A stretch of 64,000 bases of DNA from Tetracentron sinense (Eukaryota; Streptophyta; Magnoliopsida; Trochodendrales; Trochodendraceae). Within the stretch, counting starts at the first letter, position 1, and each line of letters opens with the position of its first letter. The notes beneath the pieces were generated by a model. The model saw nothing but the letters and a program-made list of their open reading frames with translations. It ran no database searches and was not told the origin of the DNA. The stretch spans positions 13,398,607-13,462,606 of the forward strand of contig CM026568.1 in the NCBI GenBank assembly GCA_015143295.1, written 5' to 3'. Below are positions 8,415 to 58,246 of this stretch, piece by piece. The position numbers and the translations under genes are program-made.

Positions 8415-9088
8415 TAATATATATATATATATATATTTGTATTTGCGTACATGTGTGTGCATGTGGGTGCTCGTGTACATATAGAAAATACTATATAAAT
8501 TATTACTATCAAAAAAATAAATATAAGAAGGGCAAAAAATGCTGAAATTTAAATTTACCTTTTTATTCATACACTACTGAAGATGAGCAATCATCAATTC
8601 ATGTGGTGGATTTAGAATTTTAGTAAAAAGTTGCTAAGAAGTCATGAACTACATTGTAAGCCAGTGACTCCAAATTTTTGCAATGTCTAGTAGGGAAATT
8701 AGTGTGACTAGACTCAAAAGGTTTTAAAAGCCTAAATATGTTAAACATAATAAATTAAGTGTTAGTTGAAACCAATATCAACATCATCATCGCTTTTAAC
8801 GTCTTATCTGAAATAATGTGTTATTTGCTATTAATTGAGACAAATGACAAATTTAAAATAAAATGCAACATTTAAGTCTCAGTTTATTGCTAGAACCATA
8901 ATTTTAGTTAATTTATAAGATGTACGCTATAAACATAAAGGGAGTCTCAAGGTGTGAGACGTGTTCCCCATGTGAGCTTCATACTTTGAGGCATGCCTTA
9001 TGAGATTTAAGCCTCATGGTTTCATCTCGAGGCATTTTTCTTAAGCCTCGCTTCGAGGCGTAAACCTCACACACCTTTTAAAACACTG
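8415..9088 (-). mobile_element. GAGGCTT-word hAT-like element, copy 1, one end missing
   Basis: Reverse complement of most of 19553-20361, including the shared core (caaatttttgcaatgtctag; ctaaatatgtt...aacataataaattaag). The right end (in + orientation) is packed with gcctcg/gaggc words and stops at acactg. About 200 bases of the other end are absent: homology begins exactly where the Copia-1 LTR ends and is not found on that element's other side. Confidence 0.75.
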
Positions 9089-10239
9089 AGCTACAGCCTA
9101 AAGGTGTTGATCCAATATGTTTGACAATGAGTATATAGTTTAGGGGGATACTGCAAGGTGATGAAGTGTTAGTTGACAGCTATACTAATAGGTCTATAAC
9201 CTAGTGATTGGGCTTGTGTTAGTGAACCGAATGAGGTATTGGCTGTATATTCCACCATATTAATACGTATCCTTTGATATGTATCCTTTTTTGAGGTTTC
9301 TGAAACAAAACTCTAATGTCAAAGACTCAAAAATACACCATACAATACATATCATACTATTTCAATTATTTTGCATATCAAAATTGAGAGTAACCTCCCC
9401 TCCTCCCTTTTTCAGCTTTATGAACCTCATTTTCTTCCTTCTTTACTCCTCTCCAAACCTTGTGTTCTAGCCCTAAAAAAAATTGTCCATCTTTAACAAA
9501 TCATTGAAAAACCTATTTGATTTTTTTGGAGATAAAATCAAATGGGATATTCCACACTATTCATCTAGGTATTCTCCATTCTTTTTATTTTCAAAATTTA
9601 AGGTCCCAAATCCCTTGAAATGAAAGGGGAATGGCTAAAAAATAGATCATCAGATCTTTAGATTTGGCTTCATTAAGGTGATTTAATCTTACATTTTTTA
9701 GTTTTTCACCAAAGCTAAAGATATTATTGAACTTCTTAGTTAGTAAATTTGTATGTTTTATGTACTGAAATGCCTTTATTATGCATTTACTTGTGTTTAC
9801 ACTTGTGTTAGTGCTGGTGTAATCTTAATCTTCTTGTGTTTGCGTAAAATGCATGTTTTATTAATGAATTATGTTTGTATTTGTCTAATCTTATGTTGTA
9901 CATGTAATGGATACGTATACACCTATACACAACGTATTTGTGCTTTTAGGAAGTAATGCATTGTGGTAACTCATATAGACAGTTTAAACAATAGTTATTG
10001 GAATTGATCCATAATATTTGTAGCTTATTTTTGCATTAAAATTTTAAAATAATTGTGGCATGAAATTTGCATGCGTTTTAACGTGTCTTGAATTTTTTAC
10101 ATCATTTTTGTGCATATTGATAAATATCCACGATATGTTTACCAATTTTGACTTACCTATACATGCACCATTACCAATATTATGAATTGTTTCCGAGAGA
10201 TTAGCTAGGACTTCTTTATTCCAAGCCACACTTCCATGT
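9089..10239. other. No gene recognised
   Basis: AT-rich intron sequence with several short open frames that match nothing I know. No terminal repeats were identified. Confidence 0.4.
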
Positions 10240-10875
10240 TATGAAGTTTGAACAAGGGAAGTCAAATGCTCAAGAAACGGATGTTCTTAATGTGGCGGAA
10301 TTTGGAAATGGGGATTTTGTTGGCCAATGTCCACATAAAGACATAGAGCCTTAGGGTTGACTAAGAATGGAGCCTCTAAAGACCGAGGAGAAATCACATG
10401 ACAAAGGTTAGGAAGATGTATAGAGGCCTTACTGCTTGATTCAGATGTTATTGTATTCTACTTAGACTTCTAACACTTCCAAAACACGGGAAAGACGATT
10501 GGCTACGCTCAAACGTATTTCAGACAAGGGTGAGCTTCGATGGAAGCGGTTCGACCTAATTATTGAGATGCCAAGACTAGAAATGTTAGGTGTACAACTT
10601 AAACTTCTCCCACAACCTTACAAAGTGCCATGAATCATGGTGTGTCTTTTGATGATAAGCATTGTTTGGTTACTTACTCTTTAGCTGTAGGCATGCAACA
10701 TATATCAATTTTATCCGATGTGATCCCCTTCGAGTCAAAGTTCGCCATATTTTATTAGGGAGGCCATGGCATTATGATCAACAGGTGGGAAAAGCCAGCA
10801 CTTATGCTTTAATGATGAATACTGGGGACATTTTATTGCAAATGTTGAAAGAATCGATCAACCAAGGCAATAGAT
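10240..10875 (+). mobile_element. Ty3/Gypsy retrotransposon fragment
   Basis: Segments resemble plant Gypsy gag-pol in order: a knuckle-like piece (VGQCPHK), a protease-like piece (DDWLRSNVFQTRVS, near 10500), and the conserved HILLGRPWHYDQQV block ahead of reverse transcriptase at about 10748-10790. Only this short stretch is recognisable and it is broken. LTRs were not found. Confidence 0.7.
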
Positions 10876-11476
10876 AATATGAGACTGACGGTTATTCGAT
10901 CCAACAATAAATGGAAAAACCGGTAATGACCGGATCCAGTGATGGTGGGTATCCTAATATGCGTTCCTTGAGACATTAGCAGCACGATAAGAGAACTCTT
11001 TGATCAGGTACATGCAAAGAAACAACATGAGTTAGGAGGCTAGGGGAGCATCTAACATGTCTAGCAAAGTTGAGGGATTGGGTGATGATGATACTAGTCT
11101 CTATGTTCCTTTTGAGGAGGTTGAATATAAAACATGAAGTGCTTATTAATTTCTGATCTAGTAGCCTTGGAGTACATTGTAACATTTTCTAGTAATCTCA
11201 CAATCTGTAGCATCCTACGAGCAAGATCCTTACATCACAAACCACATTCCTTACCATGGTTCAAACTTCAAAATATTCGTATCGAATCCTGTATTGGTTT
11301 GGCGAATTTAAGATACATATCATGGATATGCTGACAAAATTAAGAAACACTTGGATAAACAGGGAAAAACTTGGATACATTTCATAAAATTTCTTTTAGT
11401 GCAAAGATTGGTTAAAAACAAACTAAATGAAACCCTACAACTATATTTATAGCCATACATATGAGATTTAAGAATT
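10876..11476. other. No gene recognised
   Basis: Nothing recognised; part may be further Gypsy or hAT debris. Confidence 0.35.
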
Positions 11477-12040
11477 CTAAAAGTTAAAAAAGTCATTAGT
11501 ATTTGCATTTCCCTCATCCTCCTGAGTATAAGTCCTTAGAGTCTTTATCAATTCATTGAACTCGCCATCATTCTCATTTCCCACATTAGTCCCAACCCCA
11601 CTTGGCCTAGCCTTACTCAGTCCAGGCCCACTAATACCAGCACTACTGCTATGCCCAACTCTACTATGTCCTACTCTGCTCGTACCAGCTCCACTTGATC
11701 CTGGCTCATCCAACCATTCCCCCGTCAAATTACCGCTAAGGGATTCTCTCTCTACAGCTCGTTGTGTGCCCTCATTGCCTGGTTGATCTCTCTAGGAAAC
11801 TTAGAGATAAGGTAGATGTTTGTATACCCACCTAACAAATGTTGTTTGAATCAAGTGATCCAACCACCTATAGAGTAGAGATTCAAACCCACAAAATCTG
11901 CATCTCATCCTTAACCTACTACCATCTATACGGTTCAAAGACTACCAAGTACCACCCTACATCTTTGACATGCTCTACACTCTTCTTTGGCACCATCTCA
12001 AACCTTTTTAGAAAGAAACAAAGATCTTTAATATATAACC
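11477..12040 (-). pseudogene. hAT transposase relic, BED zinc-finger end
   Basis: On the minus strand, KDVGW is followed by MRCRFCGFES and later FPREINQAMRAH, in more than one frame. This resembles the N-terminal BED zinc finger of plant hAT transposases (DVGW...MRCKFCG...HL...VP.EVR..M..H). An 83-codon open stretch rich in Gly and Ser (GTSRVGHSRVGHSSSAGISG) follows at 11477-11728, as linkers often do. The usual DUF659 and dimerisation domains are not visible downstream, so it is a decayed fragment. It may be a relic of a source for the small hAT-like elements, but nothing ties it to a particular family. Confidence 0.6.
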
Positions 12041-12959: not shown

Positions 12960-13615
12960 ACGAGACTCTTAAACTACCGCGATAAAAACGTAGTTTTAAA
13001 CTAGCCGCCTTGGCTATCATTATTATAATTCTGATATATATAATATTATTATTGTTTAATGATATAATTTTTTTTTTTGGTTTGAATATGGTAGTTTGGT
13101 AAACAAAAAACATGTATTGTATATACTTCTCATGTCTTTTACCATATAATATAGTAGAGATTTGTATATCCAACAAAAAGATTTGTATATCCAACAAAAT
13201 AGATTTGTAGATTGAAGAAGAAAGAAGAGACGAATGGTGTGGAGTAAGTTTTCCTCATGTTGACTTGTCATCTCTCTCGCTCAAAGGGTGGACCAATTGG
13301 TCTCTCTCTTTCTCCCTTTCGATAGTCATTTTAGACTTACTTTTTTTGTTCCTTTTTTTATTCTCAATACTTGAAATCACATTTTATTATTCCTAGAATT
13401 GTTTTTAAGGAGGGTTTCATCATAACATCTTGATAATGAGAATTTTGCAATTATATCAATTGCAGTGCCTCTTTTTCAAGGAAATGCATCATACATAGAT
13501 CTCATATTGGGAAAGATTTTTGCAGCAAAAAGTTCATCAAGTGAAGCCTTAGGCTGCCACCTTAGGCATTCAAGGGGTCGTTCGCCTCAAGTTGCCTGGT
13601 CGCCTTGACAACCAT
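12960..13615 (+). mobile_element. GCCTAGGCG-family element II, copy 1
   Basis: Shares with 43281-44050 and 54305-55389 the core with accatataatat, atatccaacaaaa, the ttgtcatctctc/ggaccaattggtctctctct block and catagatctcatat. It ends gtcgccttgacaaccat. The left end is decayed and no target duplication was established. Confidence 0.65.
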
Positions 13616-13669
13616 ATTTGTAACAATGGTTCTACCCAAAATGAAACCCCATTCAGGTTTTATAGTCTT

Positions 13670-14664: not shown

Positions 14665-14665
<1 letters not shown>

Positions 14666-18000: not shown

Positions 18001-21000
18001 ATAAATTTGGGAAATGGCATCTAACTTTGTTGTGTGATATGCTACGATGGGCTGAGTTGGGGTGGTAGTTGTGGATTGTTGGAAGAGTTTTTATGTAGTA
18101 GCTTCCTCATCTCTCTTTTTCCATTTGGAAACAGGATAGTCATGTTCTTCTGTTTTCAATTTGTGCGAACTTGGTTTATGACAATTATGACCAATAAAAT
18201 AGTTATTCATTGTTGGTGGTCTTTATTGAACTTTGTATCCCTCGATTGTTTGATTGCTAGCAGATGGATTAGTGTCAAGGGACTCACATTCCGTCTTTGG
18301 TCAGAATTGGTGTTTGAAGCCTAGGTGCCTCGCTCAGAGGACTAGAAGACATTGATTTCTGGTCAATCAACTTGGAAAATCTCTCGGAGGTCCTGAAATT
18401 TAATAAAGGAGGGATTTATAAACTTACCCCAATCAATCTCCATCCTTGATCAGGAAATGGTCTTCTCGCTGGTGGTCGAAGAGAATAGCAGTTAAAGAAA
18501 AGCTTCCCAGTATAGGAGGGGTCGAGAAGACGAATCAGCCTTGGAGTTTCTAGGTTGCTGAGCTGGATTCTCGGACCATGTATCTTCAGTTTTACAGGTC
18601 CTTTGTTGACCGTGAGGGTACAATGGCGACTTTGAGTCAAATAATAGTAGAAGGGAGGGATACCTTTAACCATGGTTGGGAAAACCAAAACCTTGAGTTC
18701 AAGTGTTCACAATCACATGTTTTGAGGCAGTGATGATGTGGTGAAGCCTAGACACATGACATATGTTCCCCTTTCCAGAAGTTATAAGAGAAAATCACCC
18801 TACAAACTTAATATCAGAGATCACTTTAGTTTGGGAGTTTGATTCGTGGACAAGAATTCGGATCCCCATCTTGCAATTTTGTGGTGGCCCACAATCTGAC
18901 CTGAAATAATGGGTTCTTAGTTAAAGGACCGAAGGACGCTATCAGACATTTTTCAAACTGCAGGGGCTTTATCAATAATTCACAAAAAATCTTTAAGAGA
19001 AGGCAGATAATCTATCCTTCCCATCTACAAGCGAAGAGTCTAATCGACCTTTAATGGGAAAATCTGGTCACCATCGTCAAAGAGGGGAGCCATCTAGGCG
19101 TTTTAAGGAGATGTAAAGCAGTGCCCTTGTGAAAATTCATATATTCCAGAGGTCAACTGAAAAGGACATTACTATTTACTAGGAGAAGACTTGTTGTCGA
19201 TTGGAGATGCTTATGACTACCATGGCTGACTCTGAACTATGGTGGAGATTGGCAAAGCCATAATGGAAGTGATGGAAAGTATGATTGAGTGGGACAGAGT
19301 TCATTTGTCTAAAATCATTCAATTGTCAGGTACTTTCAGCTCCTCCCCCATATCCCTCTTTCTTGTCTTTTAGTTGTGGTTGTAACGGAGGGAAGGACGA
19401 AAGGGAGAAGGTTGTGGCTTGAGGAGCAAGAAGAAGCAAAAGAAATGAGTGAATTTGAAGGTGCTACCATGGTTAACTTTTGTGAAGAGGAGATCTTCCT
19501 ACTGACAAAAGGCCGGGCTGTCGATAATGAAGTGAACCATGTTACGGTAGATCACTTTTTTAAAAAGCATGTGAGGCTCGGCTCGGGGCGAGACTTAAGG
19601 AAAACACTTTGAGGCTCAACCTTGAGGCTTAAACCTTATGAGGCTCACATGAGGCATACCCCTCACCTTGAAGTCGCTATATGTCTATGGCGTACGTCTC
19701 ATACATTAACTAAAATTAGGTTTCTAGCCACAACTAAGACTTAAATGTCATTGTTTTAAAATTTGTTTTTTGTTTCAACTAACACAAATAGTAATATTTA
19801 TTGTAGAGAAGACATTGAAAATGATGATGGTAATATTGGTTTCATTTAACACTTAATTTATTATGTTTATATATTTAGGATTATAAAACCCTTTAAGTTT
19901 AATTCACACTATTTCTCTAGTAGACATTGCAAAAATTTGGAGCCACTAGCCTACAATATAGTTCATGACTTATTTGCAATATTGTTACTAAAATTCTAAA
20001 TCCACCATATGAATTGATGTTTGAATATCATCTTCAATACATATATGTACAAAAAAGTAGATCTACATTTCAACATGTTTTTTTTTCTTGCATTTCTTAT
20101 TTTATTTTTTTATAATTAAATAAATTATATAGTATTTCCTATATGCACGCGTGCGCCCACCGAAACACAATGTGCACGAATACAAATATATATATATATA
20201 TACTATAATCTTTCATTAACTTTTGAATCTTTTTACAATTTTCCTTATATTTTTTTTTATTTGTTAAAATGAAAGAGCATGAAGCTTTCTTGTGAGGCTT
20301 AAGCCTCACGCATCTTGAGGTGCTAACGCCTTGCCTCATGCCTTCACGGTTTACAATATTGTTGTAGATATGCAAGAGGAGAAATTTCATTTGTCTGGAG
20401 ATTCTTAGCTCTATGGGATTGGGATTGTATGTTTCGGAGACTCAAGAGCTAGTGGTCGAGAGGAAGCCTAGAGCGACTTCTAAGTGACGTAGAATAATTT
20501 GAAAATTTTTGGGGATCCCCCAAGTGGGTCATGAAGAAGAGGTCAAATTGCTATTTCATGAAATCGAGAAAAATAAATGAAAGATTCCGGAAGAAAAAGG
20601 TGGAAGAGTTAAGGAAGGAATAATTTTAGATACCAGAAAGCCACGGTAACTATGAAAGAACATTAGTAGGCATAAGGAAGAGAGCAGTCGAAAGGTCATG
20701 GGTATGTCCAAAGCCTTGTAATCAAGCAAGGAATTATTTCTTGGAATTCCAAAGGTATTGAAAGTACAGTTAGAAGAATGCTAATCAGTGAATTTATGAA
20801 TAACCCAGAGCCAGAGATCACATGTATTCGAGATCCTAAGGTTGAACAAGTTGAAGAAGTTATAACCCGGGAGATTTCGGGGAACAAATACTTTGGCTAG
20901 GAAGTTTTACCCTCTATACATGCATTTAGAAGCATCATCATTTGCTCGGAGTAAAGAAGTGATGGAGTAGTAAACTATGTAATGGGGGAGTACTCTATAT

Positions 21001-45000: not shown

Positions 45001-48000
45001 TTGGAATTAGCTAAAAATCAATCACCGTTTGAACTTTGAACCTATATGAGTAAAGGGCAATTTTGAAATTAATTAAAATTCATTCAACATGTGTAAATGG
45101 CAGTGTTGGAATTAGCTAAAATTCACTCAACATTTGAACCTTTGTGAGTGAAGAGCGATTTTGGAATTAACTAAAATTCATTCAACATTTTAAATCTATA
45201 GGAGCAAAGGGCAGTTTTGGAATTAGTTAAAATTGAAGGGCAGTTTTGTAATGATCTAAATTCAAGTAAAGAGCAGTTTTGAAATTAGTTAAAATTCAAG
45301 GGCAATTTTAGAATTAACAAAATTCCATCATCCTTTTGGGCCTTATATGAATAAGGACAGTTTTAGAATTAACTAAAATTCAACCTACGTTTTTAACTCC
45401 CCCATTCTCATTATATATAAGAAGATAAGATATTCTAATACACCATAGTTTTTTAAAATATATGAATAGCTTGAAATTCATCTTATTTCCAAATGAGAGG
45501 CCTCCCAAATAATAGACTTGAACCTTCTCTTCTTGAAAAGCAATTAGAAAATTTTAAGCATAAATTAAAATAAGTTTACAATGGCATATATCTTGTAATA
45601 GCAAATACATACTTATCAAAGAGAGTCGACTGACTTTCTAGAGGAACAAATTGGAAGTTTATTCAACTCCTAAAATTGGAAGTTTACTACTTAGTATGAA
45701 GCTACATAACACAAAATTGGAAGCTTATTCAACTCCCACTCCTTGACTTACTCCGGTGTCCATGAGGGAATATTCTGAGTGGGTTGGTGCGGACACCTGA
45801 AAGAATCAGTCCTTGTCTTGAAGGGTTTGGGATACCCTTCATTGCCAAAAAAAAAAGTTTATCCAAGGAGAGAATCTGGCCTTGCAACATAGGCTAGTAA
45901 TTGTAATGTTTGCATTAAAGAATCAGAAGAGAAATGAATGATAAATAAAAAGGCCCAAGAATAAGGTGCTGGAACGTAAAAGGCAAAAAGCGGTTGAGTT
46001 TAAAGGGAAATTGAGAAAAGAAGGAAGATGGAATTTAGAAGCAAAAATTCTAGAGATGTGGGATATAACCAACTATTATAAAACATGGGGAAAAGGTTTT
46101 GTGGGAATTTAAAGGAATTAATCACATGGCGACACTTGGTGGGATGAGGTTCAAAAAGGCATTAGAGAAAAGAAGCCTTGTTATTACTTGGCAAGGAACT
46201 ACAAACAAGGAAAATATAGAAGATAATACAAAAAATATTAGATTAAAAAGTGAAGAAAGTACTAAACATAAGGAATATAATGACATATACAATAATTTTA
46301 GTGTAAGAGAGAACAATGTCTGTAAAGTGTAAACTTGCGAGTACAAGAGACAAAAGAAACTTGGTGGGAGGGGGTTCATAAAGTCGTTAGAGAAAAGACC
46401 CTATTATAATATTTGGTAAGGAACTACAAACGACGAAAACATAGAAAATATATAAAACTGCTATTCTGCTAAAAAGGAACATAAGAATTCCCATCGAGTT
46501 TACAAAGAGAGTGGTCAGCCTGACTTTGTTTATACCCATTCTTCATCGTAGCTCCCCTGAATCTTTCAAACCAAGATCTTGGAGACTATTTCAAAGCATA
46601 GAGCCTTTTTTTTTTAACTTGTACACTTTGTTCCCTGCACATGGGATTGTAAAGCTAGGAGGAAACTTCATATTAACTTCTTCTAAGTCCCCATGCAAGA
46701 AAAAATTCTTTTACATCAAGTTGGAAGAGAGGCCAATCCATATTTGCAGTTTGAGTTCAACTTGTCAATAGGTGCAAATGTCTCCTAGTAATCAATCCTG
46801 TAAGTTTGTTAATGCAACCATCCACTTTATACTTCACTATAAATGGCCACTTGCACCCCAAAAGGGTTTTTCATTTGGGTAACTCTACTAAGCTCCATGT
46901 TCCATTTTTTCAAGAGCATTAACCTCCTCACACATGTTGCTTTCCAGTTGGGGTTGGAGAGAGCCTCTTTGACACTTTGTGGCAAAGGAACAAATGAAAT
47001 AGAAGTAGCAAAGACATGGCAGGATGGAGACAAGAAATCAAAGGAAATATAATTAGAGATAAGGTGTTGAGTACATTTACGAACACCATTACGGACGATT
47101 GGCTGATTTAAATCAGCAACAGTTGACTCATCAGTAGGAAAAACAGAAGTAGGCAAAGTGCTACCTAGATCAGAGGGGACAACTTGACATGGTATATGAG
47201 CATCACTTTCCTTCATCTCCGAGAGTAAACCTTTAACTCCTTTTCCATTGCCGTTGAACTGCCACCACCACCACTTCATGCTAGGGTTTCCCCTTGAATA
47301 TCAAACACATAGGGAGGAACAGAACACATAGGAAGAGGAAAAACAGATGAAGAAGAAGATTTCTCTTCAACAACACATTGATGCTCCCCCTGAAGAAGAG
47401 TCTTCCCAAAAGAGAAGAAAGTGACGGATTCTACAAAAGTGACTTCCGTAGAAACAAAATGCTTACAAGGAGGATGATAGCATTTATAACCTTTTTACTG
47501 GGGAGAGTACCATACACTTCATTGGCCTTCGGATTAAGCTTATTCCAATTTTTTTTAGACATGAACATAACAAATATAGCCAAATACATGGAGGGAAACA
47601 TGAAACAAAAGCAAAGTATGAGACAAAAGTTCAATGGGAGTTCAAAAATCTAGAATCCGAGAGGGAATACGGTTCATAAGGAAGGCAACATTAAGAACAA
47701 AATCTGCTCAGAACACCTTAGGAACATTCATACCAAAGAGAAGGACACGAGTGATCTCAAGGAGCCAAGGATTTACCTATTCTTTCTCTCCATTTTGGTG
47801 TAGAATGTCAACCTAGGTAGTCTGATGGACTATCCCATGTTCTGCAAAGAAGAATGGTAACTCCCCTGAGAGATACTCACCACCAGTATTAGAATCCAAG
47901 CTCTTAATTTTGGACTCTGAGTACTAACCATTTGATAAAAGATTTTTGACATAGAGCAAACATCAATGAGATGAATGAGTGAAAAGACTAAGGAAGATAA

Positions 48001-51000: not shown

Positions 51001-53432
51001 TATGTCTCAAATAAACTTTATTTAAATTGCTTTTGAATAGGTTTTTATTTCAGTTGTTTAAATAATTTTTAAGGTTGTTAACCAAACTTAATTTAAAAGG
51101 AAGTGATTATTTATATATTTAAATACTTTTAAAATAAATGACAGTCGATTATTTGGATAATTAATCTATTTAATTAATTTACAAAGTAATTTTTTAAAAA
51201 TCATTATTTATAGAAAGAAAATTCCTGCCAAGCTATGGAGTTTATAACCTTTTGCTTTTACTAGGAATCTACAACATATCAAAAATGTATTTAATTTTAT
51301 TAAAAAGCATTAGCACCCACTATTCAACAAATTGAAAAAATTTCACATCATGGGTCCTAATGAATGAATCTCAACCCATTTGTATGATTGCTTACTTATG
51401 TAATTTATATGTGTTTAACAAATCGGTTAATTCTCAAGTAATTTGTAAACATTTAAACAATTGAATTGGAACTAAGAGGTCACTTCCAGCAAATTCCACA
51501 GTTTCGGGAAACAATAGAATTCTGATACATTAGTTTCCAATTCATAGATATTCTAATGCTTATGCATTGGAATCCTCATTGATGTTTAAATTCTTGTGAT
51601 CCAAACATTTATTATTATTAAGAATGTATAATCCCTACTTGGAAATGAACCTCTCATAATACGGAAATAAAATGATGAAAATAGAACTTTTCATCAGGTC
51701 AATTCATTATGAGGAGGTTTGGTCAGATTTACCCGATCGGGCCTCTTCTGGTTCCATATCTGGGTTACTTTTGAAAATATTGCTAGAATCTTCTGCTGTC
51801 GGTGTATATCTGTTCACATGTCCAATGCTTTCATTCAACCATGCTCCTTTTTTTCGATCAGTTTCAACCCTGCTGTTTTGTAGTGTCATTAGAGATTTTA
51901 TCTTCTATTCCTTGCAATGCTCATGAAATCTGTTCATGTTTCTGGTTTTTGTGAAAATTCATTATAGTGGAGTGCAAGTGCTAGGTACCTTATGTTTTTT
52001 TAGGCATAATTGCTGGACAACTTGGCCTAAGTCCAATTTCATGAACAGGGATACCCAGGGAAGTTCTACTGCCCAAGGATGAATAGCATGAATAAACCAG
52101 CATACGCTGCCATATGTACCCATTCACCTACAAAACCAGTTCTCATTTTTGTTTCATCTCGTCGCCAGACAAGGCTTACTGCTCTGGACCTCATTCAGGT
52201 GAGATATCCTAAATTATGCTGGAAGATGAACTTTTCTAAGGTATCATCATTTGTTAATTATGTACACATGTAATTGCAGTTTACAGCTGCAGATGAGCAT
52301 TCGAGGCGATTTCTAAATATACCAGAGGAAGCATTGCAGATGGTCCTTTCTCAGGTCACTGATCAGAACCTTAGGCACACCTTGCAATTTGGTTTTGGAT
52401 TGCACCATGCAGGACTGAATGACAGAGATAGATCTTTGGTTGAGGAACTCTTTATAAACAACAAGATTCAAGTACTTCTTTATCATCTTGACTTTTTTTT
52501 AAATAGGAAATATTGTAAACTTTAAATAAAGCCATGTTCCCACTTTTATTATTGACTGGACTCTTTAAATTCTGTCGAATTATAGGTTTTGGTTTGTACT
52601 AGCACATTAGCATGGGGTGTAAATCTTCCAGCTCATCTGGTTATTATCAAGGTGAGGCAAAAGTACATTCGTAGAGTTTATATGTTTTAACTTTTAAAGT
52701 TGTTCTCACAAATCTCATTCGCAGAAACTTTTGACAAGGGAAGTTCTGTGGAAATTTTAGAATTCAGGTTTCTCACTGGTTCTTATAAGAAATGTCTCTG
52801 GAAAATTAAAATAGAATGCAAAAATATGACTTGGTACTTTCATGAGGTTCTTGTGTCAGTTTAATTATTTATTATGTACTGTACTTGTAAATTTCAATTT
52901 GATGCTATATGCGTGCCTTACTTACAGAAATTTATGTACATACATATGTAGGTGGTGATGTGTACGATATTTTCTTTCATAGACTGCAAGATCATCCCTT
53001 TCACCCCCTAAGAAATTTTGCTTAATGAAACTTCCATTTCTGTTACAGGGAACAGAATATTATGATGGAAAAGCAAAAAGATATGTTGATTTTCCCATTA
53101 CAGATATCATGCAAATGATGGGTCGTGCAGGCCGGCCGCAATATGATCAGCACGGAAAAGCGGTCATTCTTGTTCATGAACCCAAAAAGAGCTTCTACAA
53201 AAAGGTTAAAATAAATATGAACTAATTATTTGACTTTTATGTCATGTTTTTAATCTTTGAAATAACTTCCAAATTATTATGATGGCAGTTTCTTTATGAA
53301 CCATTTCCGGTTGAAAGTAATTTGAGGGAGCAGTTGCACAATCATATCAATGCTGAGATTGTTTCTGGCACAATTTGCCATAAAGAGGATGCAGTGCATT
53401 ATCTCACCTGGACATACTTGTTCCGCCGATTG
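14836..53432 (+). CDS. DExH14: DExH-box RNA helicase of the ASCC3/Brr2 group, internal part (19 exons)
   Basis: The product is a Ski2-like superfamily 2 helicase with two cassettes. In animals ASCC3 unwinds nucleic acid in the ASCC complex (alkylation repair, splitting of collided ribosomes); the plant role is inferred from homology. Nineteen exons join to 823 codons without a stop. Order: winged helix and Sec63 region of cassette 1 (first six exons), immunoglobulin-like segment, then cassette 2 with [16 protein letters not shown] (motif I), [11 protein letters not shown] (Ia), STPEKWD (Ib), DEIH (II), STALANARD (III), [10 protein letters not shown] (IV), [12 protein letters not shown] (V) and [10 protein letters not shown] (VI). 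All visible catalytic motifs of cassette 2 are intact. The family protein is about 2,100-2,200 residues, so roughly 40 percent lies here. Exons fill 2.5 kb of a 38.6-kb span because six introns are swollen with transposons. No start codon, promoter or polyadenylation site falls in the window. Confidence 0.95.
15521..15676 (+). CDS. DExH14: Helicase exon B (52 codons, Sec63 region 1)
   Basis: Acceptor actacag, donor cag|gtattt, phase 0. It encodes [20 protein letters not shown] followed by a segment ending GKISILIQ, the start of the first Sec63 helical bundle. It follows exon A after a 472-base intron. Confidence 0.93.
15781..16005 (+). CDS. DExH14: Helicase exon C (75 codons, Sec63 region 1)
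   Basis: Acceptor tttgcag, donor gaa|gtttgt, phase 0. It contains [20 protein letters not shown] and the [10 protein letters not shown] signature of Sec63 domains. One residue looks unusual: LGRGW, where relatives as remembered have R or K in place of the first G. Whether that is a polymorphism or lineage change cannot be told here. Confidence 0.93.
16094..16195 (+). CDS. DExH14: Helicase exon D (34 codons, Sec63 region 1)
   Basis: Acceptor aatcag, donor aag|gtaaca, phase 0. It encodes [20 protein letters not shown] then [12 protein letters not shown], the helix-loop-helix part of the first Sec63 unit. Confidence 0.92.
16290..16370 (+). CDS. DExH14: Helicase exon E (27 codons, Sec63 region 1)
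   Basis: Acceptor ttttgaag, donor aag|gtaagt, phase 0. It encodes [20 protein letters not shown] then ITRTVLK, the strand that opens the immunoglobulin-like fold of the Sec63 unit. Confidence 0.92.
16469..16549 (+). CDS. DExH14: Helicase exon F (27 codons, Sec63 immunoglobulin-like part)
   Basis: Acceptor ttctcag, donor gag|gtgcta, phase 0. It encodes [17 protein letters not shown] and ends in RWWILVE. The donor opens the 19.3-kb transposon-filled intron, and the reading frame resumes exactly at 35826 with [13 protein letters not shown]. Confidence 0.92.
16550..17459. other. Proximal part of intron F-G, no repeat recognised
   Basis: Contains a (TA)n run at 16814-16840. The remainder resembles ordinary intron sequence and may be the old, pre-insertion intron. 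Confidence 0.45.
19553..20361 (+). mobile_element. GAGGCTT-word hAT-like element, copy 2
   Basis: Both ends carry gaggctt/aagcctc words (19570-19670 and 20290-20340), around an AT-rich core shared with 8415-9088. Ends are cacttttttaaaaagc and, reversed, caatattgtaaacc. The flanks cggtagat and ttgtagat agree at 6 of 8 positions. It sits inside L1-A. Confidence 0.7.
22048..24117. mobile_element. CGAGT-word hAT-like element with TAGG ends
   Basis: Inverted ends taggagtgtaaacgag and (reversed) tagggttgtcaatgag, with flanking 8-mers actgacac and attgacac (7 of 8). Both subterminal 150-base zones are dense in gagtcg, gagctcg and ctcgag-type words. It contains another element at 22538-23670. No transposase is seen, so it is non-autonomous. 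Confidence 0.85.
22538..23670. mobile_element. GATATCG-word hAT-like element, copy 1
   Basis: Starts caaggttatgaatgttgata and ends attttaaatcatg, flanked by a perfect 8-bp duplication, gttcacac. The right end is full of gatatcg and atatcgc words. It aligns with the outer element at 32762-35233 over several hundred bases (aaagatgtgc, cccatcccaagaactacaat). Nested in 22048-24117. Confidence 0.92.
25418..26671. mobile_element. GATATCG-word hAT-like element inside L1-A, candidate
   Basis: Begins caaggttttcaatatttg and ends with aaaatttaaaacctta; gatatatcgc and atatttcg words lie at the ends. The flanks tttttagc and tcagtagc agree at only 5 of 8, so the exact borders are uncertain, but the L1 reading stops and resumes across it. 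Confidence 0.55.
25510..25785 (-). mobile_element. Candidate tRNA-derived SINE
   Basis: The minus strand has a box A-like tagcgaaggtg and, about 25 bases on, a box B-like ggatcaagtc, followed by about 230 bases of unique-looking sequence. No tail or target duplication was confirmed. It could be chance similarity. Confidence 0.3.
27806..27930. repeat. Short minisatellite, 21-25 bp period
   Basis: About five imperfect copies of a unit like gacgagattaggtatttact lie in the left part of the 4.4-kb hAT-like element. One copy shares a 20-base word with the next inserted element. Confidence 0.7.
27981..28583. mobile_element. GCCTAGGCG-word hAT-like element I, 603 bp
   Basis: Inverted ends cagtgtagtcaaggtgtc and (reversed) cagtgtagtcaaggcgtc with a perfect 8-bp duplication, gacaagat. 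Both ends are arrays of gcctaggcg/cgcctaggc, and the right end (28480-28560) alternates tcgcctaggca and acgcctaggcg. The core is AT-rich with no coding potential. Confidence 0.95.
28606..28925. mobile_element. CCGATACG-word hAT-like element, copy 1, 320 bp
   Basis: Starts catggaaataaaaattgc and ends atttttttatccttg, flanked by perfect gacagaag duplications. Words ccgatac, gatacgaaacgg and gtatcgg fill both ends. Same family and orientation as 35284-35616. Confidence 0.95.
28934..29487. other. Interior of the 4.4-kb element, nothing recognised
   Basis: Unrecognised sequence, presumably the internal part of the hAT-like element at 27498-31920. No open frame of note. Confidence 0.4.
29488..29951. 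mobile_element. CGAGT-word hAT-like element, 464 bp
   Basis: Ends tatagttcaaaaacc and (reversed) cgtagttcaaaaaccc, flanked by perfect gtttggcc duplications. Subterminal zones repeat gagtcgagt and gagtaactcgg. Its ends differ from the other CGAGT-word elements, so the word is shared by families with different termini. Confidence 0.88.
30231..30461. repeat. 92-bp tandem repeat, 2.5 copies
   Basis: Unit starts actatggttagtgcc; starts at 30231, 30323 and 30415. The two full copies differ at only a few positions, so the duplication is young relative to the surrounding fossils. Confidence 0.93.
30651..31715 (+). mobile_element. 5'-truncated LINE-1 copy (L1-C) with target duplication
   Basis: An open 140-codon stretch ([40 protein letters not shown]) continues in other frames to [18 protein letters not shown] and [15 protein letters not shown]. 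This is the C-terminal part of plant L1 ORF2, followed by a 3' UTR and an A run at 31703-31711. A 14-bp duplication matching at 13 positions (ttattcataaatat at 30637-30650; ttattcatagatat at 31716-31729) marks insertion by target-primed reverse transcription into the 4.4-kb hAT-like element. Confidence 0.92.
33749..34957. mobile_element. GATATCG-word hAT-like element nested in a relative
   Basis: Starts caaggttcgaaatttcgata, ends atcgacatttagaaccttg, with perfect actatgaa duplications. Ends carry gatatcgg and cgatatcg words. The core differs from the outer element and includes a 79-bp tandem repeat, so it is a separate family sharing the terminal style. Confidence 0.94.
34178..34500. repeat. 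79-bp tandem repeat, about four copies
   Basis: Unit contains taagtaaccctaacaagggt, then tatgctagggtcactcct; unit marks at 34204, 34285, 34362 and 34441 (spacing 77-81). It lies inside the nested hAT-like element. Confidence 0.9.
35284..35616. mobile_element. CCGATACG-word hAT-like element, copy 2, 333 bp
   Basis: Starts catggaaataaaaatcgcc, ends aatttttaatccttg; flanks aacatacc and aacgtacc match at 7 of 8. Aligns along its whole length with 28606-28925. It sits only 210 bases upstream of exon G. Confidence 0.94.
35826..36029 (+). CDS. DExH14: Helicase exon G (68 codons, Sec63 immunoglobulin-like part)
   Basis: Acceptor tgagcag, donor gag|gtgaga, phase 0. It contains [19 protein letters not shown] and [20 protein letters not shown], both typical of the family. 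It is the first exon after the 19.3-kb intron and has no stop, which argues that the big intron is still spliced. Confidence 0.94.
36120..36236 (+). CDS. DExH14: Helicase exon H (39 codons, entry to cassette 2)
   Basis: Acceptor aattcag, donor cag|gtatgc, phase 0. It encodes [20 protein letters not shown] and [10 protein letters not shown]. The last segment resembles the Q-motif region that precedes the first RecA domain of cassette 2. Confidence 0.94.
36339..36461 (+). CDS. DExH14: Helicase exon I (41 codons, Walker A of cassette 2)
   Basis: Acceptor cttgtcag, donor aag|gtatgc, phase 0. It carries motif [10 protein letters not shown], encoded at 36381-36407, followed by [11 protein letters not shown]. 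The lysine and threonine that hold ATP are present. Confidence 0.95.
36462..37134. other. Intron I-J, no repeat recognised
   Basis: 673 bases without a recognisable element or coding signal. Confidence 0.5.
37135..37224 (+). CDS. DExH14: Helicase exon J (30 codons, motif Ia)
   Basis: Acceptor catgcag, donor atg|gtaaaa, phase 0. It encodes [20 protein letters not shown], motif Ia of the Ski2-like group. The preceding intron (36462-37134) has no recognisable repeat. Confidence 0.94.
37305..37430 (+). CDS. DExH14: Helicase exon K (42 codons, motif Ib)
   Basis: Acceptor ctgtcag, donor aag|gttaac, phase 0. It encodes [10 protein letters not shown] and [16 protein letters not shown], the family motifs around Ib that contact the nucleic acid strand. 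Confidence 0.94.
37590..37652 (+). CDS. DExH14: Helicase exon L (21 codons, DEIH box)
   Basis: Acceptor ctgtag, donor gag|gtattc, phase 0. It encodes [22 protein letters not shown] is motif II (Walker B) of cassette 2 and is intact. Confidence 0.95.
37956..39106 (+). mobile_element. Solo LTR, probably Copia type
   Basis: Starts tgttaggtctatg and ends aagggaatttca, with flanking 5-mers atgta and atgaa (4 of 5). The near-terminal phrase cctattcacacccctttagg is typical of long plant LTRs. No internal region or partner LTR is present, so it is read as a solo LTR left by recombination. It contains ctcgagcgag-type words (38275-38400) and a short internal duplication near 38873-38960. Confidence 0.75.
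39107..39542. other. Intron L-M, unrecognised part
   Basis: Nothing recognised between the solo LTR and the ACCGGTC-word zone. Confidence 0.4.
39543..40395. mobile_element. Candidate element with accagtcgg/gaccagtc words at both ends
   Basis: Repeated gaccaaccagtcgg, gaccgttcgaaggttcga and gaccagtcaaccc words lie at 39560-39720 and 40315-40380, around the 246-bp tandem duplication. The style is that of the other word-repeat elements, but target duplications were not found. Confidence 0.4.
39772..40267. repeat. 246-bp tandem duplication
   Basis: Units 39772-40017 and 40018-40267 are near identical (ggctctttcatagagaaaat, then gaagggaggcct, in each). Only a scatter of substitutions separates them, so it is recent. 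It ends 250 bases upstream of exon M. Confidence 0.93.
40518..40606 (+). CDS. DExH14: Helicase exon M (29 codons plus 2 bases, motif III)
   Basis: Acceptor ttttcag, donor cg|gtatgt. It encodes [19 protein letters not shown] and GLSTALANA; the final two bases join the first base of exon N to give an arginine codon (ANARDLADW). It is isolated between a 2.9-kb and an 8.7-kb intron. Confidence 0.94.
41050..41301. mobile_element. GGCCC-word element
   Basis: About 250 bases dominated by cggcccggcccg and gggttgggc words, ending ggcattgacaccccta. Reversed, that end reads taggggtgtcaatgcc, resembling the TAGG-ended element at 22048-24117. The left end and target duplication are unclear. Confidence 0.6.
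41302..45420. repeat. Higher-order tandem array, possibly stacked Helitron-like elements
   Basis: Four modules recur in the same order: an ACCGGTC-word patch (41303-41340, 43040-43110, 44600-44670); minisatellite A, units of roughly 55-80 bases like gggcagttttggaattaa plus aaaattcaatcaac (41340-42420, 43120-43280, 44060-44160, 44680-45420); a hairpin pair of the type cacgtgcgatgcacgtg (42450-42535, 44165-44255); and minisatellite B, 27-30 bases like ggcattttgggtatagaaa (42590-43010, 44270-44580). The modules near 42480 and 44200 align at a 1,720-base offset. The tatatattaataaagg starts and GTGC-hairpins recall plant Helitron termini. That assignment is inference. Confidence 0.6.
43281..44050 (+). 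mobile_element. GCCTAGGCG-family element II, copy 2
   Basis: Starts cataattgttaaaggcgtcg and carries the family core (accatataatatgtt; atatccaacaaaa; catagatctcatatta). An internal atggttgttaaaggcatcgc near 43690 repeats the element start, and the same internal copy exists in 54305-55389, so it belongs to the family. The right end is truncated inside the gcctcaggc zone. Inserted in minisatellite A. Confidence 0.75.
45421..46100. other. Intron M-N, unrecognised part
   Basis: No element or gene recognised. Confidence 0.4.
46140..46455. repeat. Imperfect direct repeat, about 85 bp, 225 bp apart
   Basis: 46140-46225 and 46365-46455 share gttcaaaaaggcattagaga-like and gcaaggaactacaaac-like sequence. 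It is not recognised as part of any element. Confidence 0.65.
46640..48060 (-). mobile_element. Ty1/Copia fragment (Copia-2), minus strand
   Basis: The minus strand reads integrase remnants (47640-48020), then a linker with [16 protein letters not shown] and [16 protein letters not shown], and the reverse transcriptase start near 46850. These phrases match Copia-1, so the two belong to related families in opposite orientation. LTRs are not seen. It is a broken fragment. Confidence 0.8.
48065..48330 (+). mobile_element. RTE-type LINE 3' fragment
   Basis: The + strand reads FGHVQ, then [39 protein letters not shown] and, in another frame, a decayed version of the ADPKxVG ending. This GRGRPKxTWxEVVxxDL block is the C-terminal signature of plant RTE-clade non-LTR elements. 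Only the last 90 codons remain, with stops. Confidence 0.8.
48331..49258. other. Distal part of intron M-N, nothing recognised
   Basis: Probably original intron sequence leading to exon N. Confidence 0.4.
49259..49349 (+). CDS. DExH14: Helicase exon N (30 codons plus 1 base) with a GC donor
   Basis: Acceptor atttcag. It encodes [20 protein letters not shown] and [10 protein letters not shown]. The exon must end at cag because exon O begins with GYPGKFYCP, so the donor is cag|gcaagt, a GC donor in otherwise ideal context. Confidence 0.92.
49350..49355 (+). promoter_or_regulatory. Non-canonical GC splice donor
   Basis: The intron starts gcaagt, not gt, directly after exon N and ends with an AG at 52047-52048. 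No GT within several bases keeps the frame. GC-AG introns are a known minor class handled by the major spliceosome, normally with a strong CAG|GCAAGT context, as here. It opens a 2.7-kb repeat-bearing intron. Confidence 0.85.
49615..49646. repeat. (TA)n(TG)n microsatellite
   Basis: Compound dinucleotide run in intron N-O. Confidence 0.9.
50095..51620. mobile_element. Candidate outer element in intron N-O
   Basis: aatggcccatttaattgg at the left and, reversed, aaatgtttggatcacaag at the right are weakly inverted, with ggaatt/aattcc words inside each end. The style resembles Harbinger or hAT MITEs. A target duplication was not established. Confidence 0.35.
50333..50938. mobile_element. Terminal-inverted-repeat element with a palindromic target duplication
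   Basis: Ends ctaagtaac and (reversed) cttagtaac; flanked on both sides by gtctagac, an 8-bp palindrome, at 50325-50332 and 50939-50946. Because the duplication is its own reverse complement, the inverted repeat seems longer than it is. gagagcgggagtgagagc-type words near the left end and gagagtgggagcgg near the right fit the word-repeat style. A 20-base flank (tctagacacttgattattt) is also present just upstream. Confidence 0.7.
50947..52048. other. Rest of intron N-O
   Basis: AT-rich, with no gene or further element recognised beyond the candidate outer element. Confidence 0.4.
52049..52198 (+). CDS. DExH14: Helicase exon O (50 codons, motif IV)
   Basis: Acceptor tgaacag, donor cag|gtgaga, phase 0. 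It encodes [20 protein letters not shown], then [19 protein letters not shown], motif IV at the start of the second RecA domain. Confidence 0.95.
52280..52471 (+). CDS. DExH14: Helicase exon P (64 codons, motif IVa)
   Basis: Acceptor attgcag, donor caa|gtactt, phase 0. It encodes [20 protein letters not shown] and [20 protein letters not shown]; the second block is the highly conserved LHHAGL segment of Ski2-like helicases. Confidence 0.95.
52586..52651 (+). CDS. DExH14: Helicase exon Q (22 codons, motif V)
   Basis: Acceptor attatag, donor aag|gtgagg, phase 0. It encodes [20 protein letters not shown], motif V. It is followed by a 397-base intron with no recognised repeat. Confidence 0.95.
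53049..53204 (+). CDS. DExH14: Helicase exon R (52 codons, motif VI)
   Basis: Acceptor gttacag, donor aag|gttaaa, phase 0. It encodes [19 protein letters not shown] and [20 protein letters not shown]; the glycine-arginine pairs of motif VI are intact. Confidence 0.95.
53289..53432 (+). CDS. DExH14: Helicase exon S (48 codons, start of cassette 2 winged helix)
   Basis: Acceptor tggcag, donor ttg|gtatag, phase 0. It encodes [29 protein letters not shown] and [11 protein letters not shown]. The next exon, expected to start with an AYYGLE-like segment, is not seen before the window ends, so the following intron exceeds 10.5 kb. Confidence 0.93.
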
Positions 53433-54304: not shown

Positions 54305-55389
54305 CATCGTGGTTGTCAAAGCGACTAGGCGACATGAGGCAATAGACCCCATGGACGCCTGAGGCGTCACCTGATGAACTCCTTGATGCATAAATTTCCC
54401 CCAATATGAGATCTATGTATGTTTCATTTCCTTGAAGGGCCTTTATAATTCACATAAATTGCATGATCTTCATTGTCAAGGTGCATTTTGATAGAACCAT
54501 TCTTGGAGATAGTTCTCGAAATAAGAAAATGAGAATTTCAAGTTGTGGGAATTATTAAAACAGAGCAAAAAAATAAACAGTCTACAATGATTCTTGAAGG
54601 GGGGGCCAGAGAGGGATTGTAGGGATAAAAAAAAAAAAAATCTACCATCACAGACAAACAGGATAGAGGGAGAGAGGAAGGAGAGGGGGGACAATGTAGG
54701 ACCGAATAAGAAAATAGAAAAATAATATGACAGTCAATGTGCAACTGAACAAGGGGGAGAGGGGTAGAAAGGGAGAGGAGTTTACTCTCTTTTTTTTCTT
54801 CATTCCTCTCAATTATGCTCAAAAAAGGTAATAAAAAAATATATGATAAATATACCATAATTATGGGACCTGCATAGCTGCACTTATTTGAAACTATAAA
54901 AGACCCTTTAAAGATGGGTTCATGAGAGTTGTCGAGGGCTTGGAGGGCAATTTGGGCACTTATAGGCCTTTTATCGTTATTGGGCTGCCTAAGCCTATTT
55001 GTATACCTGGTCACCTAGGCAACGCCCTTAACAACCATATACAAACAGAGGGGGCCATAGTCCACCCACAAAGAGAGAGGGAGAGAGACAATTGGTTCAC
55101 CCATTGGGCGAGAAAGATGACAGATTAACATGAGCAAAAACATACTTCACACCATATATTTTCTTGTTTCTTATTCTATTTGTGAACTTTTTTTTTTGTT
55201 GGATAGACAAACCCTAACATATTATATGGCAAAGGACACTCAAAACATATAAAATAACATGTTTTTTTGTTGACTAAAATATCATCTTAAAATAAAATAA
55301 ATTTTTGGTACCCATAAACAATAATAATAGTACATAAATCAGATTTTTAATAATGATCGCCTAGGTGGTCAGTTGCCTGAGCTCAGCAG
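54305..55389 (-). mobile_element. GCCTAGGCG-family element II, copy 3
   Basis: Reverse complement of the family seen at 43281-44050. It starts catcgtggttgtcaaagcg, has gaggcgtcacctgatgaac, atatgagatctatg, an internal aacgcccttaacaaccat near 55021, the ccaacaaaa-type core and gatcgcctaggtggtc near 55357. The far terminus after 55389 is missing. Confidence 0.75.
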
Positions 55390-57165
55390 GGGCCTCAAAA
55401 TGCTAAACTTGGATACTTTGCATACAACTTCTTTTAAATTAATGCAAAGATTAAGTTACAAAAAAAAACTAAATAAAGTCCTACAACTACCATTACAACC
55501 ATCATATAAGATATCAGACCACAAGATGTCTTAAAACGCGAGTCTATTGATAGTTTGAAAAATAAAACCATAATCGATTTGATACAACACAAACAAGTAT
55601 AATTCACTAATAAATAATAATAGCATTAAACTTTCAGATTTGTAGGAAGAGATTAACTTGAACAAGAGCCCTTGTTGAAGAGATAACTGGAGCAACCCAA
55701 AATTGGCCTTTGACAAGGTATTAAGGGAATTACAAAAAAAAAAATAGTTTACAAAAATACCCCTCCTTCATATTTGTAATTTCCAAACTACCCCTGTCAT
55801 AAGGTAAATTTTGTGCTTCTCCGGTTATCTCTTCAATTGGAGCTCCACTTCATAGTTAATCTCTTTGGGGGAATTGTTATCTTCAAAACTTGATCCCTCA
55901 ACTTTCTCAATCTTCCATTATTATTATTTTTTTTTGCACATCTGTGATTGTCAATTGAAACCTCTCATTGTGTTCCTAACTTCTTGCGGATACAACAGTT
56001 GATAACACACCCACCAGCTAATCGTTGCTTTAATTGAGTAAATCCTCCTCTACGTAATTCAAGCCGACACTCCTTACACTTTGTCAGGGTCTTCATGGCT
56101 CATGCTACCATCCAATCGATTGAAGTTGTGTTCTTGGTAATTAAGACATGAGTTATATGTATATAACATGTGGCATGGATAAGATTTTTTTATAAAACTA
56201 CAACTTGATGCAAATATTTAATAAAAAAGTTTTAATTTTGGAAAATATTTTTTAATTTGAAATTTTATCTAAATAAATTTGCTTTTGAAAATTGACATTA
56301 TTCTAACAATAGTCCATTAACATGTATGTTTTTACACCGTATGTACTGTGAATCAATAAAAACGATATTAATTTAAATTTTTGAATAAAGTTTGCTCTTT
56401 TTAAATATAAAAATAAAATTATTTTAATTATAAAAATAAAATTATATTAATTATAAAAAATATAAACTATAATATAGATTCAAAATTTATGATTATAATA
56501 TGTAATTAATTTTTATAATTGTAAAAATGGAGATTAGTCCATGGATGTGGTAGATTCTCCATAAACTAATTATATATGTTTTTTAATTATATAAAAAAAT
56601 TATAAATTATTTTTAAAATGTATTTACTTTATTTATTATATAATATAATTTATTTTTATAATTATAAAATATTAGATTAGTCCATAGATGTGGCAGATTC
56701 TCCAAAGAATAATCATACGTTTTCACAACTTAAATGAATAGTATTACTCAAAAAAATAAATGTTTACTATTTTCAAAAAAAATCTCATTTTATTTAAAAT
56801 ATATTAATATTTTTCCAAACAACCATAGTCTAATCATAAATATTTTTAATATATTAGTAGTACTACTCACAATTAAAGTATTATTAAATTTTGGAAAACT
56901 ATTATTTATTTAAAAGTTAAAAGAGCATCTCCTTTTCAGTTTTCAATATTTGGGTTTGTCCATGGATGTGGTAGATAATCCATAGGCTAACCATGTATAT
57001 TTTAGTTGGGCTTAAAATGATAGTTTTTCTTTGAGGAATTTTTTGGTTATTCAGTTTTCCCCAAAATGCGTGAATGTGTCCCTGACATCCAACAAATAAC
57101 TATTGTGGATCCATTGATTTCACATGAAGTCCATATATCTACACTGTTACATGTTAAATGATGTG
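55390..57165. other. AT-rich stretch with a thrice-repeated phrase
   Basis: No gene. The phrase agtccatggatgtggtagat (with small changes) followed by tccata recurs near 56534, 56675 and 56952. The element it belongs to is unknown. Confidence 0.45.
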
Positions 57166-57173
57166 ATTCAAAG

Positions 57174-58246
57174 CAAGGTATTAAACTTCGGTTTCGGTAT
57201 AAACTTCGGTCGCTAAGAAAGTTGACACGCTTCGAGGAAGTTTAAGGAAGTCCAAGGAAGTTATGTAAAAATTAAAGAAGTGTAGGAAACTTTAAAGAAA
57301 CATTAGAAATCTAAGATGAAACTTTAGAAATTCAATACTTAAGCATAAATACACATCTAGAATTCATTATATTACTGACGCAAGCATGTAGTACTCAAAT
57401 GTGAGAATCATATTAAGTGACATGTGTTGTTTGCTTGTCTGAGCTGTAATTTTTTCTTGGTATTTCTCTGGATTGTCAATTTTTTAAAACTATATTTCAT
57501 CTTCTTTGTCAAGTGAAGAGGTATGTATTCTCTTTATTTTTCAATGATTAACTATGTTAATTGTTTTGGAAACCTAAAAACCTTATGAATGCACATTGAA
57601 GTCGATAAATAATTGAAATTCAATTTAGTTTCTAAACATATTTCATTCTATAATTGATGAACTCAATATTTTTACAATACTGAATCAATATGTAAAAAGG
57701 AGGAGATGGGTATTTAAATAATTTTGAATTTATGAAATACTATTAGGAAATTATTTGATTTTTTTAATATTACTAAAAAGTCATTATGAGCATAATATAC
57801 TAATAACAAGATTATTAGTATAATAAAATGATAATTTATAGTAAGGTTAATGCTAACCACACTCTAATAATAAAATTATAATTTATAATAAGGTTAATGC
57901 TAGCACTCTCTCTTTTAAAGTTGATTATATTTATAATAAGGTTAATGCTAGGTACACATGTCTTTCCTTACGAAGAAAGTAAGTTTAAAACGAGTGAAAC
58001 TAGCATTACCCTTTTAAGTTAAAACCTGAAGTCCTTCAATTTACAAATATTTTCTATACATTTCGGTTAACTTCTACTGAAGTTCTACATTTTCTTAACA
58101 ATTTTTTTCTGTTTCGGTCGAAGTTTATGGAAGTTTACTAGGAAGTTCAGTATTTTTAAGATACTAGTGCATTTCACTTCAGACACCACGGAAGTCAACT
58201 CAATTCGGTCAACTTCGGTGGAATTGAGTCGATTTTCGATACCATG
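57174..58246. mobile_element. GAAGTT/ACTTCGG-word hAT-like element, 1,073 bp
   Basis: Starts caaggtattaaacttcgg and ends gattttcgataccatg, flanked by perfect attcaaag duplications. The left 130 bases repeat acttcggt and gaagttta; the right 200 bases repeat acttc, gaagttt and cggtcaact. The core is AT-rich. A possible small inverted-repeat element (aaggttaatgctag ... ctagcattaccctt) lies near 57940-58016. Confidence 0.93.

Follow-up and report, generated by a model that had tools for sequence, protein, structure and literature searches.

Elements of the analyzed window

The DNA analyzed in this study is a 64-kb stretch of the genome of Tetracentron sinense (C18:13398607-13462606), referred to below as the window. 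It contains a group of transposable elements assigned to hATs, which have short inverted tips and 8-bp flanking duplications, and whose outer ends carry multiple copies of a short sequence (the word). The entire 64 kb was scanned for flanking duplications and inverted tips and compared with itself, and approximately 44 kb was read through. The elements are listed below (each is later named by its first position; duplications are given as matching positions out of 8).

8420-9089, no strand assigned: TGAGGC-word element, incomplete; the right tip, CAGTGTTTTAAAAGG when read inward, is at 9089, and the left end has been lost next to a long terminal repeat (LTR) and a TA run
19553-20361, no strand assigned: TGAGGC-word element; duplication CGGTAGAT/TTGTAGAT, 6/8; ends placed by eye
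22048-24117, no strand assigned: CGAGC-word element; tips TAGGAGTGTAAA / TAGGGTTGTCAA; duplication ACTGACAC/ATTGACAC, 7/8; ends placed by eye; contains 22538-23670
22538-23670, no strand assigned: GATATCG-word element; duplication GTTCACAC, 8/8; nested inside 22048-24117
27498-27630, no strand assigned: CGAGT-word element belonging to the second CGAGT family, left end; 67% identity over 133 columns to a complete element in genomic locus L003
27981-28583, no strand assigned: GCCTAGGCG-word element; tips CAGTGTAGTCAAGG, 12/12 tip matches; duplication GACAAGAT, 8/8
28606-28925, no strand assigned: GATAC-word element; tips CATGGAAATAAAAAT / CAAGGATAAAAA; duplication GACAGAAG, 8/8
29488-29951, no strand assigned: CGAGT-word element; tips like CATAGTTCAAAAACCC; duplication GTTTGGCC, 8/8
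32762-35233, no strand assigned: GATATCG-word element; duplication TTCTAGGT/TCCTAGGT, 7/8; contains 33749-34957
33749-34957, no strand assigned: GATATCG-word element; tips CAAGGTTCGAAAT / CAAGGTTCTAAAT; duplication ACTATGAA, 8/8; nested inside 32762-35233
35284-35616, no strand assigned: second copy of the 28606 family; duplication AACATACC/AACGTACC, 7/8
57174-58246, no strand assigned: GAAGTT/TTCGGT-word element; tips CAAGGTATTAAA / CATGGTATCGAA; duplication ATTCAAAG, 8/8

The original prediction, made from the window sequence, listed at least twelve elements with duplications (seven at 8/8, four at 7/8 and one at 6/8). Ten of these were reproduced (six, three and one, respectively), the exceptions being 27498 and a supposed element starting at 8415. 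No right end with a matching duplication was found for 27498 between positions 27600 and 28300. Position 8415 was rejected as an element end, since it is the end of a copia-type retrotransposon (3065-8415) that creates the apparent start: the second of its LTR-like repeats (8167-8415, matching 3065-3281) stops there. The incomplete element located next to it shares 76.6% identity over 693 columns with the reversed segment 19547-20202, as revealed by the self-comparison of the window; no continuation of it was found upstream of the LTR element. The 19553 element is unranked in the automatic duplication list and was read by eye only. The window contains two clear nestings (22538 in 22048, and 33749 in 32762). 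Both ends of the 22538 element, whose own two tips match at just 7/12 positions, resemble those of the 32762 element. Tip-to-tip identity between the 28606 and 35284 elements, whose flanks differ, is 72%.

Flanking duplications in the window and in genomic copies

Pairs with CA..TG ends, 8/8 duplications and at least 7/12 tip matches numbered 6 in the window, one of which (52046-53172) is not an element. In 20 Markov-simulated windows the mean was 1.95 and the highest count 4, and an inverted-flank control gave 5. Looser criteria yielded 18 pairs (simulated mean 11.75, maximum 17; control 12), and omission of the CA..TG rule yielded 13 (simulated mean 4.30, maximum 8; control 11). These counts lie near chance and are therefore weak evidence when taken alone, so that the blind scan was considered insufficient as proof of elements. 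The case for the duplications rests on the genomic copies, which we judge to be strong evidence.

The copies were sought in the 1.16-Gb assembly (1479 contigs). A search with the 29488 element gave 3098 candidates, the best 40 of which were scored; besides the element itself, these are near full length and 87-92% identical to it. Thirty loci were cut out and three with repeated flanks were dropped. With the tips fixed by the best match to CATAGTTCAAAAACCC, the remaining 27 loci have duplications of 8/8 (20 loci), 7/8 (4 loci) or 3 to 5 matching positions (3 loci), compared with 0/862 at 8/8 and 10/862 at 7/8 when flank pairs were swapped. The 57174 family (best 40 of 2719 candidates, 92-95% identity excluding the element itself) was read in 8 of the 40 scored copies, of which 7 have 8/8 duplications (one lacks some right-tip bases) and 1 has 7/8. 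In the 28606 family (best 40 of 2502 candidates, 78-84% identity excluding the element itself), 12 of the 40 scored copies were read: 3 have 8/8 and 5, two of which have their flanks in common, have 7/8 at the exact tips. Swapping the flanks of the 57174 and 28606 copies (20 loci, six-base slide) gave 18/380 pairs at 7/8 and 0/380 at 8/8.

The GATATCG word marks a further, young family, with the tip CAAGGTTCKAAATGTCGAYA at its ends. Its reference element, found in locus L054, is 2068 bp long, has tips CAAGGTTCTAAATGTCG and CAAGGTTCGAAATGTCG and the duplication ATTGGGAG/ATTGGAAG, has 18 copies of TATCG no more than 200 bp from its ends, and lies inside a reading frame resembling that of a long interspersed nuclear element, beside a hAT gene. 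Its left 757 bases have 9 copies (including itself) at 97-100% identity among the best 40 of 4046 candidates. Ten further copies of similar length (eight with 97-99% and two with 92-93% identity) have duplications of 8/8 (9 copies) or 7/8 (1 copy). The neighboring hAT gene was rejected as the partner of this family because the GATATCG array sits on its own inserted element.

Thus, duplications of at least 7/8 at fixed tips were found in 24/27 copies of the 29488 family, all 8 of the 57174 family, 10/10 of the GATATCG family and 8/12 of the 28606 family (the other families are represented by one or few copies), and short inverted tips are present in all four. The expectation that genomic copies end at the same bases, each with its own 8-bp duplication, was therefore confirmed (8/8 in 20/27, 7 of 8 and 9/10 copies of the 29488, 57174 and GATATCG families, respectively). 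hAT target duplications follow the preference nTnnnnAn. In the set compiled here, T occupies position 2 in 32/53 duplications (p = 7e-6 against the inner positions) and A occupies position 7 in 27/53 (p = 0.012). Both the GATATCG family and the four autonomous elements described below show the preference weakly. Mutator elements produce 9-11 bp duplications and usually have long inverted repeats; the 29488 and GATATCG families have 8 bp between fixed tips. Instead of CACTA tips and 3-base duplications, the elements have tips of their own and 8-bp duplications. The assignment of the window elements to hATs is supported by the 8-bp duplications of the genomic copies, by the T at position 2 and by autonomous hATs of like anatomy.

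Selection by word instead of by element gave a similar picture. Among the first 8 loci containing CGAGT three times in a row, the automatic scan recognized 5 complete elements with duplications of at least 7/8. The other three comprise one element read by eye at 6/8, one single end, and locus L005, for which the scan lists an 8/8 pair with just 6/12 tip matches that was not counted as an element. The anticipated tie between word arrays and element termini was thus observed in most of these loci.

Subterminal words

The best 6-mer in the outer 160 bp of each element was compared with that of 400 random window pairs (element-containing pairs included; the words were picked after looking). Enrichment exceeded the 1% level for 27981, 29488, 22048 and the 19553 element (taken as 19566), and the 5% level for 32762, 33749, 35284 and 57174. 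At 8415, nothing apart from TA repeats went beyond 5%. The 19553 element, with its ends set at 19566 and 20354, contains GCCTCA 8 times (0.11 expected). A table of 15 elements and 10 words, counted within 200 bp of the tips, is near diagonal, and one motif is repeated near both ends and in both orientations. The off-diagonal cases are (i) 22048 (right end set at 24112 in the word counts), with CGAGT 5 times beside CGAGC 9 times, (ii) 28606, with TATCG 3 times beside GATAC 5 times, and (iii) a TGAGGC element in locus L007, with just 4 TGAGGC. The original proposal that each family has its own end word is largely upheld by the table, and has to be corrected for 22048, whose main word is CGAGC and not CGAGT; it is also weakened by three elements discussed below.

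GCCTAGG-type repeats, which are mutually similar, occur at 43286-44036, 54312-55036 and 12999-13614, with ends like GGTTGTTAAAGGCGTCGCC at 43286 and 54312. The arrays at 43286-44036 and 54312-55036 were considered as candidate elements and left uncounted, as their end arrays are weak and inside the null.

Autonomous hAT elements and their words

A genome search with PF05699 (hATC) gave 1709 candidates; the best 150 were scored, all of them above the cut-off, which indicates that hAT genes are abundant. In 30 loci that were cut out, the region 3′ of the transposase contains an ATCCGA array (3 loci), an AGGGCC array (22 loci; just 3 copies in L066) or neither (5 loci). The ATCCGA and AGGGCC loci occupy separate transposase clades, whose proteins are 43-45% identical. 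A tip of the form TTGACANCCCTA is present in 3/3 ATCCGA loci, in 20/22 AGGGCC loci and in 0/5 loci with neither word. Twenty further 3′ flanks (of the 150 scored) comprise 1 with an AGGGC array, 4 with AGCCC/GGGCT, 2 with weak arrays and 13 with none within 1.5 kb. In the four AGCCC/GGGCT cases (L125-L128), a tip resembling TAGGGGTGG or TAGAGGTG, identified by eye, comes after the array.

For six hAT genes an additional 2 kb was taken on the 5′ side in search of element ends, and four of them (L039, L055, L059 and L046) proved to be complete elements with inverted tips and 8/8 duplications. L039 (4119 bp) has tips TAGGGCTGTCAA and 21 ATCCGA within 200 bp of its ends. L055, L059 and L046 (3950-4148 bp) have tips TAGGSNTGTCAA and 22, 19 and 16 GGGCC, respectively, within the same distance. 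A profile scan of L039 and L055 detected BED, RNase-H-like and hATC domains in both; hATC is present in all four by selection. When L039 and L055 were compared, their tips were alike (z score 6.4) and their subterminal parts were unlike (z 0.9 and -0.8).

Autonomous hAT genes carrying the words of the window had been expected; none was found, and the autonomous elements recovered carry ATCCGA or GGGCC. The idea that word and transposase diversified together is therefore partly supported: it appears to fit the two sampled clades, in which ATCCGA and AGGGCC follow the transposase, and no counterpart was found among the words of the window.

Tips and words across families

It had been claimed that the 22048, 27498 and 29488 elements share CGAGT across different cores and termini. 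With 22048 misassigned, CGAGT is common to the 29488 family and to a second family (L003, L004 and L008) with one tip reading CATAGTATTAAAACTCGG or CACTGTTTTAAAACTCG and the opposite tip CAGTGTTTTAAAACCCG; 27498 resembles this second family. The ends of the two families are 69-80% identical, and no similarity of their cores was reported. The claim of unrelated cores therefore stands, and the shared word is explained by common descent of the homologous ends.

The converse claim, that the same termini occur with different words, was borne out by three tips (TAGGSNTGTCAA, CARTGTTTTAAAA and CAAGGT..TAAA), each paired with two or more unrelated words. The tip CARTGTTTTAAAA is also found on TGAGGC elements, namely L007:309-1234 (8/8) and L031:927-2338 (7/8; similar tips with changes). 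Comparison of the TGAGGC elements bearing CARTGTTTTAAAA with the CGAGT family revealed like tips (z 5.5) and an unrelated core (z -0.6). The tips of 22048-24117 (TAGGAGTGTAAA and TAGGGTTGTCAA) are related to those of the autonomous hATs, and its word is CGAGC. A 29488-type CGAGT element is nested in the TGAGGC element L031:927-2338.

One pair of families shares its interior. The 57174 and L054 elements have a common core (78% identity over 247 columns), which lies 301 bases from the left tip in the former and 327 in the latter. Despite this core, the ends of 57174 carry GAAGTT and TTCGGT, and those of the L054 element carry GATATCG. Shuffling tests gave a z score of 22.8 for the core, 1.2, 1.0, 0.5 and 0.4 for the surrounding parts, and 3.6 for the right tip. 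A change of word in place, as read by eye from the alignment, is unsupported by the shuffles outside the core. With the similarity confined to the core, both a captured body and an in-place change of word fit the data.

Other features of the window

Between 35641 and 53450 there are stretches that, as judged by reading the sequence, resemble exons encoding a BRR2/Ski2-like RNA helicase (DExH type); several elements lie between them. Long degenerate tandem arrays with units of approximately 70-75 bases containing GGCAGTTTTGGAATTAA are located at 41347-45416, and a tandem repeat with a 92-base unit (2.4 copies, 96% alike) at 30231-30454.

Interpretation

In each family, one short word recurs many times, in either orientation, over roughly the outer 200 bp, and similar short tips are seen in clades and families that have unrelated words. 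We consider it very probable that the window elements are non-autonomous hATs of several families, each with its own subterminal word, and that the word is the putative binding site of the BED zinc finger of a matching transposase. hAT transposases have an N-terminal BED finger; the BED domains of Hermes bind subterminal repeats and are supplied by a ring-shaped octamer (PMC10368747), and the Ac transposase binds AAACGG repeats cooperatively (PMC3260210). An array of words would allow several BED domains of one multimer to bind together, and the tip would be read by the conserved catalytic part of the transposase. Tips would then stay alike while words diverge along with the BED finger, and non-autonomous families would be mobilized by whichever transposase reads their word.

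Several observations weigh against this interpretation. Among the 50 hAT 3′ flanks, no transposase was found for CGAGT, CGAGC, TGAGGC, CGCCTA, GATATCG, GATAC or GAAGTT (the window was not profile-scanned, and no search was aimed at a GATATCG partner). Eighteen of these flanks have no array within approximately 1.5 kb and 2 more have weak ones, and no element ends were recovered for two of the six extended hAT genes (L041 and L063). The 6-mer enrichment of 28606, 22538 and 27498 lies within the 5% null, and the 28606 family is less clean than the others, 4/12 of its copies being off the tips or at 6/8. Moreover, the Hermes structure shows BED domains bound to just three repeats, all at the left end, with the right end unbound (PMC10368747), and in maize certain Ds1 elements are mobile without the Ac hexamer (PMC3260210); the arrays may therefore be dispensable.

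The Hermes and Ds1 observations also favor an alternative in which the elements are real hATs whose words arose incidentally, by slippage or conversion in repeat-tolerant ends, and carry no recognition code. Slippage can expand short direct and inverted repeats; however, at one end it would not place the same word at the opposite end, whereas the same word is found within 200 bp of the tips at both ends and across copies. As the word also follows the transposase clade (ATCCGA and AGGGCC), we regard this explanation as improbable. A more radical alternative, that chance produced the duplications and tips and that the words are genomic repeats with no connection to the ends of transposons, draws on the blind scan, whose result was about threefold above the simulated windows and barely above the inverted-flank control. 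It is contradicted by genomic copies that stop at the same bases, each with its own duplication, and by the CGAGT-selected loci, six of which are elements when the one read by eye is included. Chance is refuted for the families with genomic copies, may still apply to 27498, 27981 and the weak arrays at 43286 and 54312, and is extremely improbable overall.

A rival that concerns only those families in which one tip goes with different words treats them as chimeras, with new ends placed around an old body, or an old body captured, and no change of word in place. The 57174 and L054 elements are consistent with it, as the parts separating core and tip show no significant similarity (left, z 1.2 and 0.4; right, z 0.5), and filler-bearing Ds2 elements provide a known parallel (PMC3260210). 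On the other hand, the core is nearly equidistant from the left tip in both elements, the left tips agree, and this is the one pair compared. We give this explanation slightly less than an even chance. Beyond BED binding as such, we tentatively propose, as a possibility rather more doubtful than chimerism, that hAT ends are modular, with a conserved tip for the catalytic part and an exchangeable word for the BED finger, so that a lineage changing its word at both ends becomes independent of its relatives.

If the ends are modular in this way, the three tips with their several words would amount to a natural code by which BED fingers recognize DNA, readable from sequence alone. This matters because hAT transposases are used as genome tools and have been a repeated source of host DNA-binding proteins. 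Where several words go with one tip, and two of those words are linked to transposase clades that have open reading frames, BED specificity might be deduced by comparison. The pairing of tip and word could also explain how related elements avoid mobilizing each other.

Comparison with known systems

The original prediction stated that no such word-coded set was known. In the open-access literature we found no description of these words, families or the same-tip set, and in this respect the statement holds; it is limited by the family-specific subterminal repeats already known in hATs (PMC10368747, PMC3260210, PMC8097297) and by a parallel in soybean CACTA elements (PMC2613891). It is well supported that the families are new and that family-specific subterminal repeats themselves are not. 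A maize hAT, Bg, has a TATCG-like motif; no paper on it was found in the open-access literature, and it was left out of the comparison.

The elements resemble maize Ac/Ds in their 8-bp duplications and short tips. In Ac/Ds, the transposase binds the hexamer AAACGG, repeat copies of which lie in the outer 200 bp, and non-autonomous relatives share the tip and the word and little else (PMC3260210). The elements described here differ in having other words and tips, many words per genome, and, in the window, words without a tied transposase. Hermes, a hAT of the housefly, likewise has repeats near its tips, where they are bound by the BED domains of a multimeric transposase (PMC10368747). In contrast to the present families, which are known from sequence, it is an animal element with demonstrated binding and with fewer bound repeats than the arrays found here contain.

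Four hAT-encoded proteins of the CGG-binding type have diverse preferences, and their binding motifs match the subterminal regions of their own elements (PMC8097297), which parallels the arrangement proposed here; in that case the binding was measured, the hosts were other eukaryotes, and there was no same-tip set. In the soybean CACTA subfamilies (Tgm1, Tgmt*), all from one species, the tips are conserved and the subterminal motifs diverge, and coevolution of the motifs with a binding protein has been proposed for them (PMC2613891). They differ from the T. sinense elements in their 3-base duplications and in having a separate binding protein.

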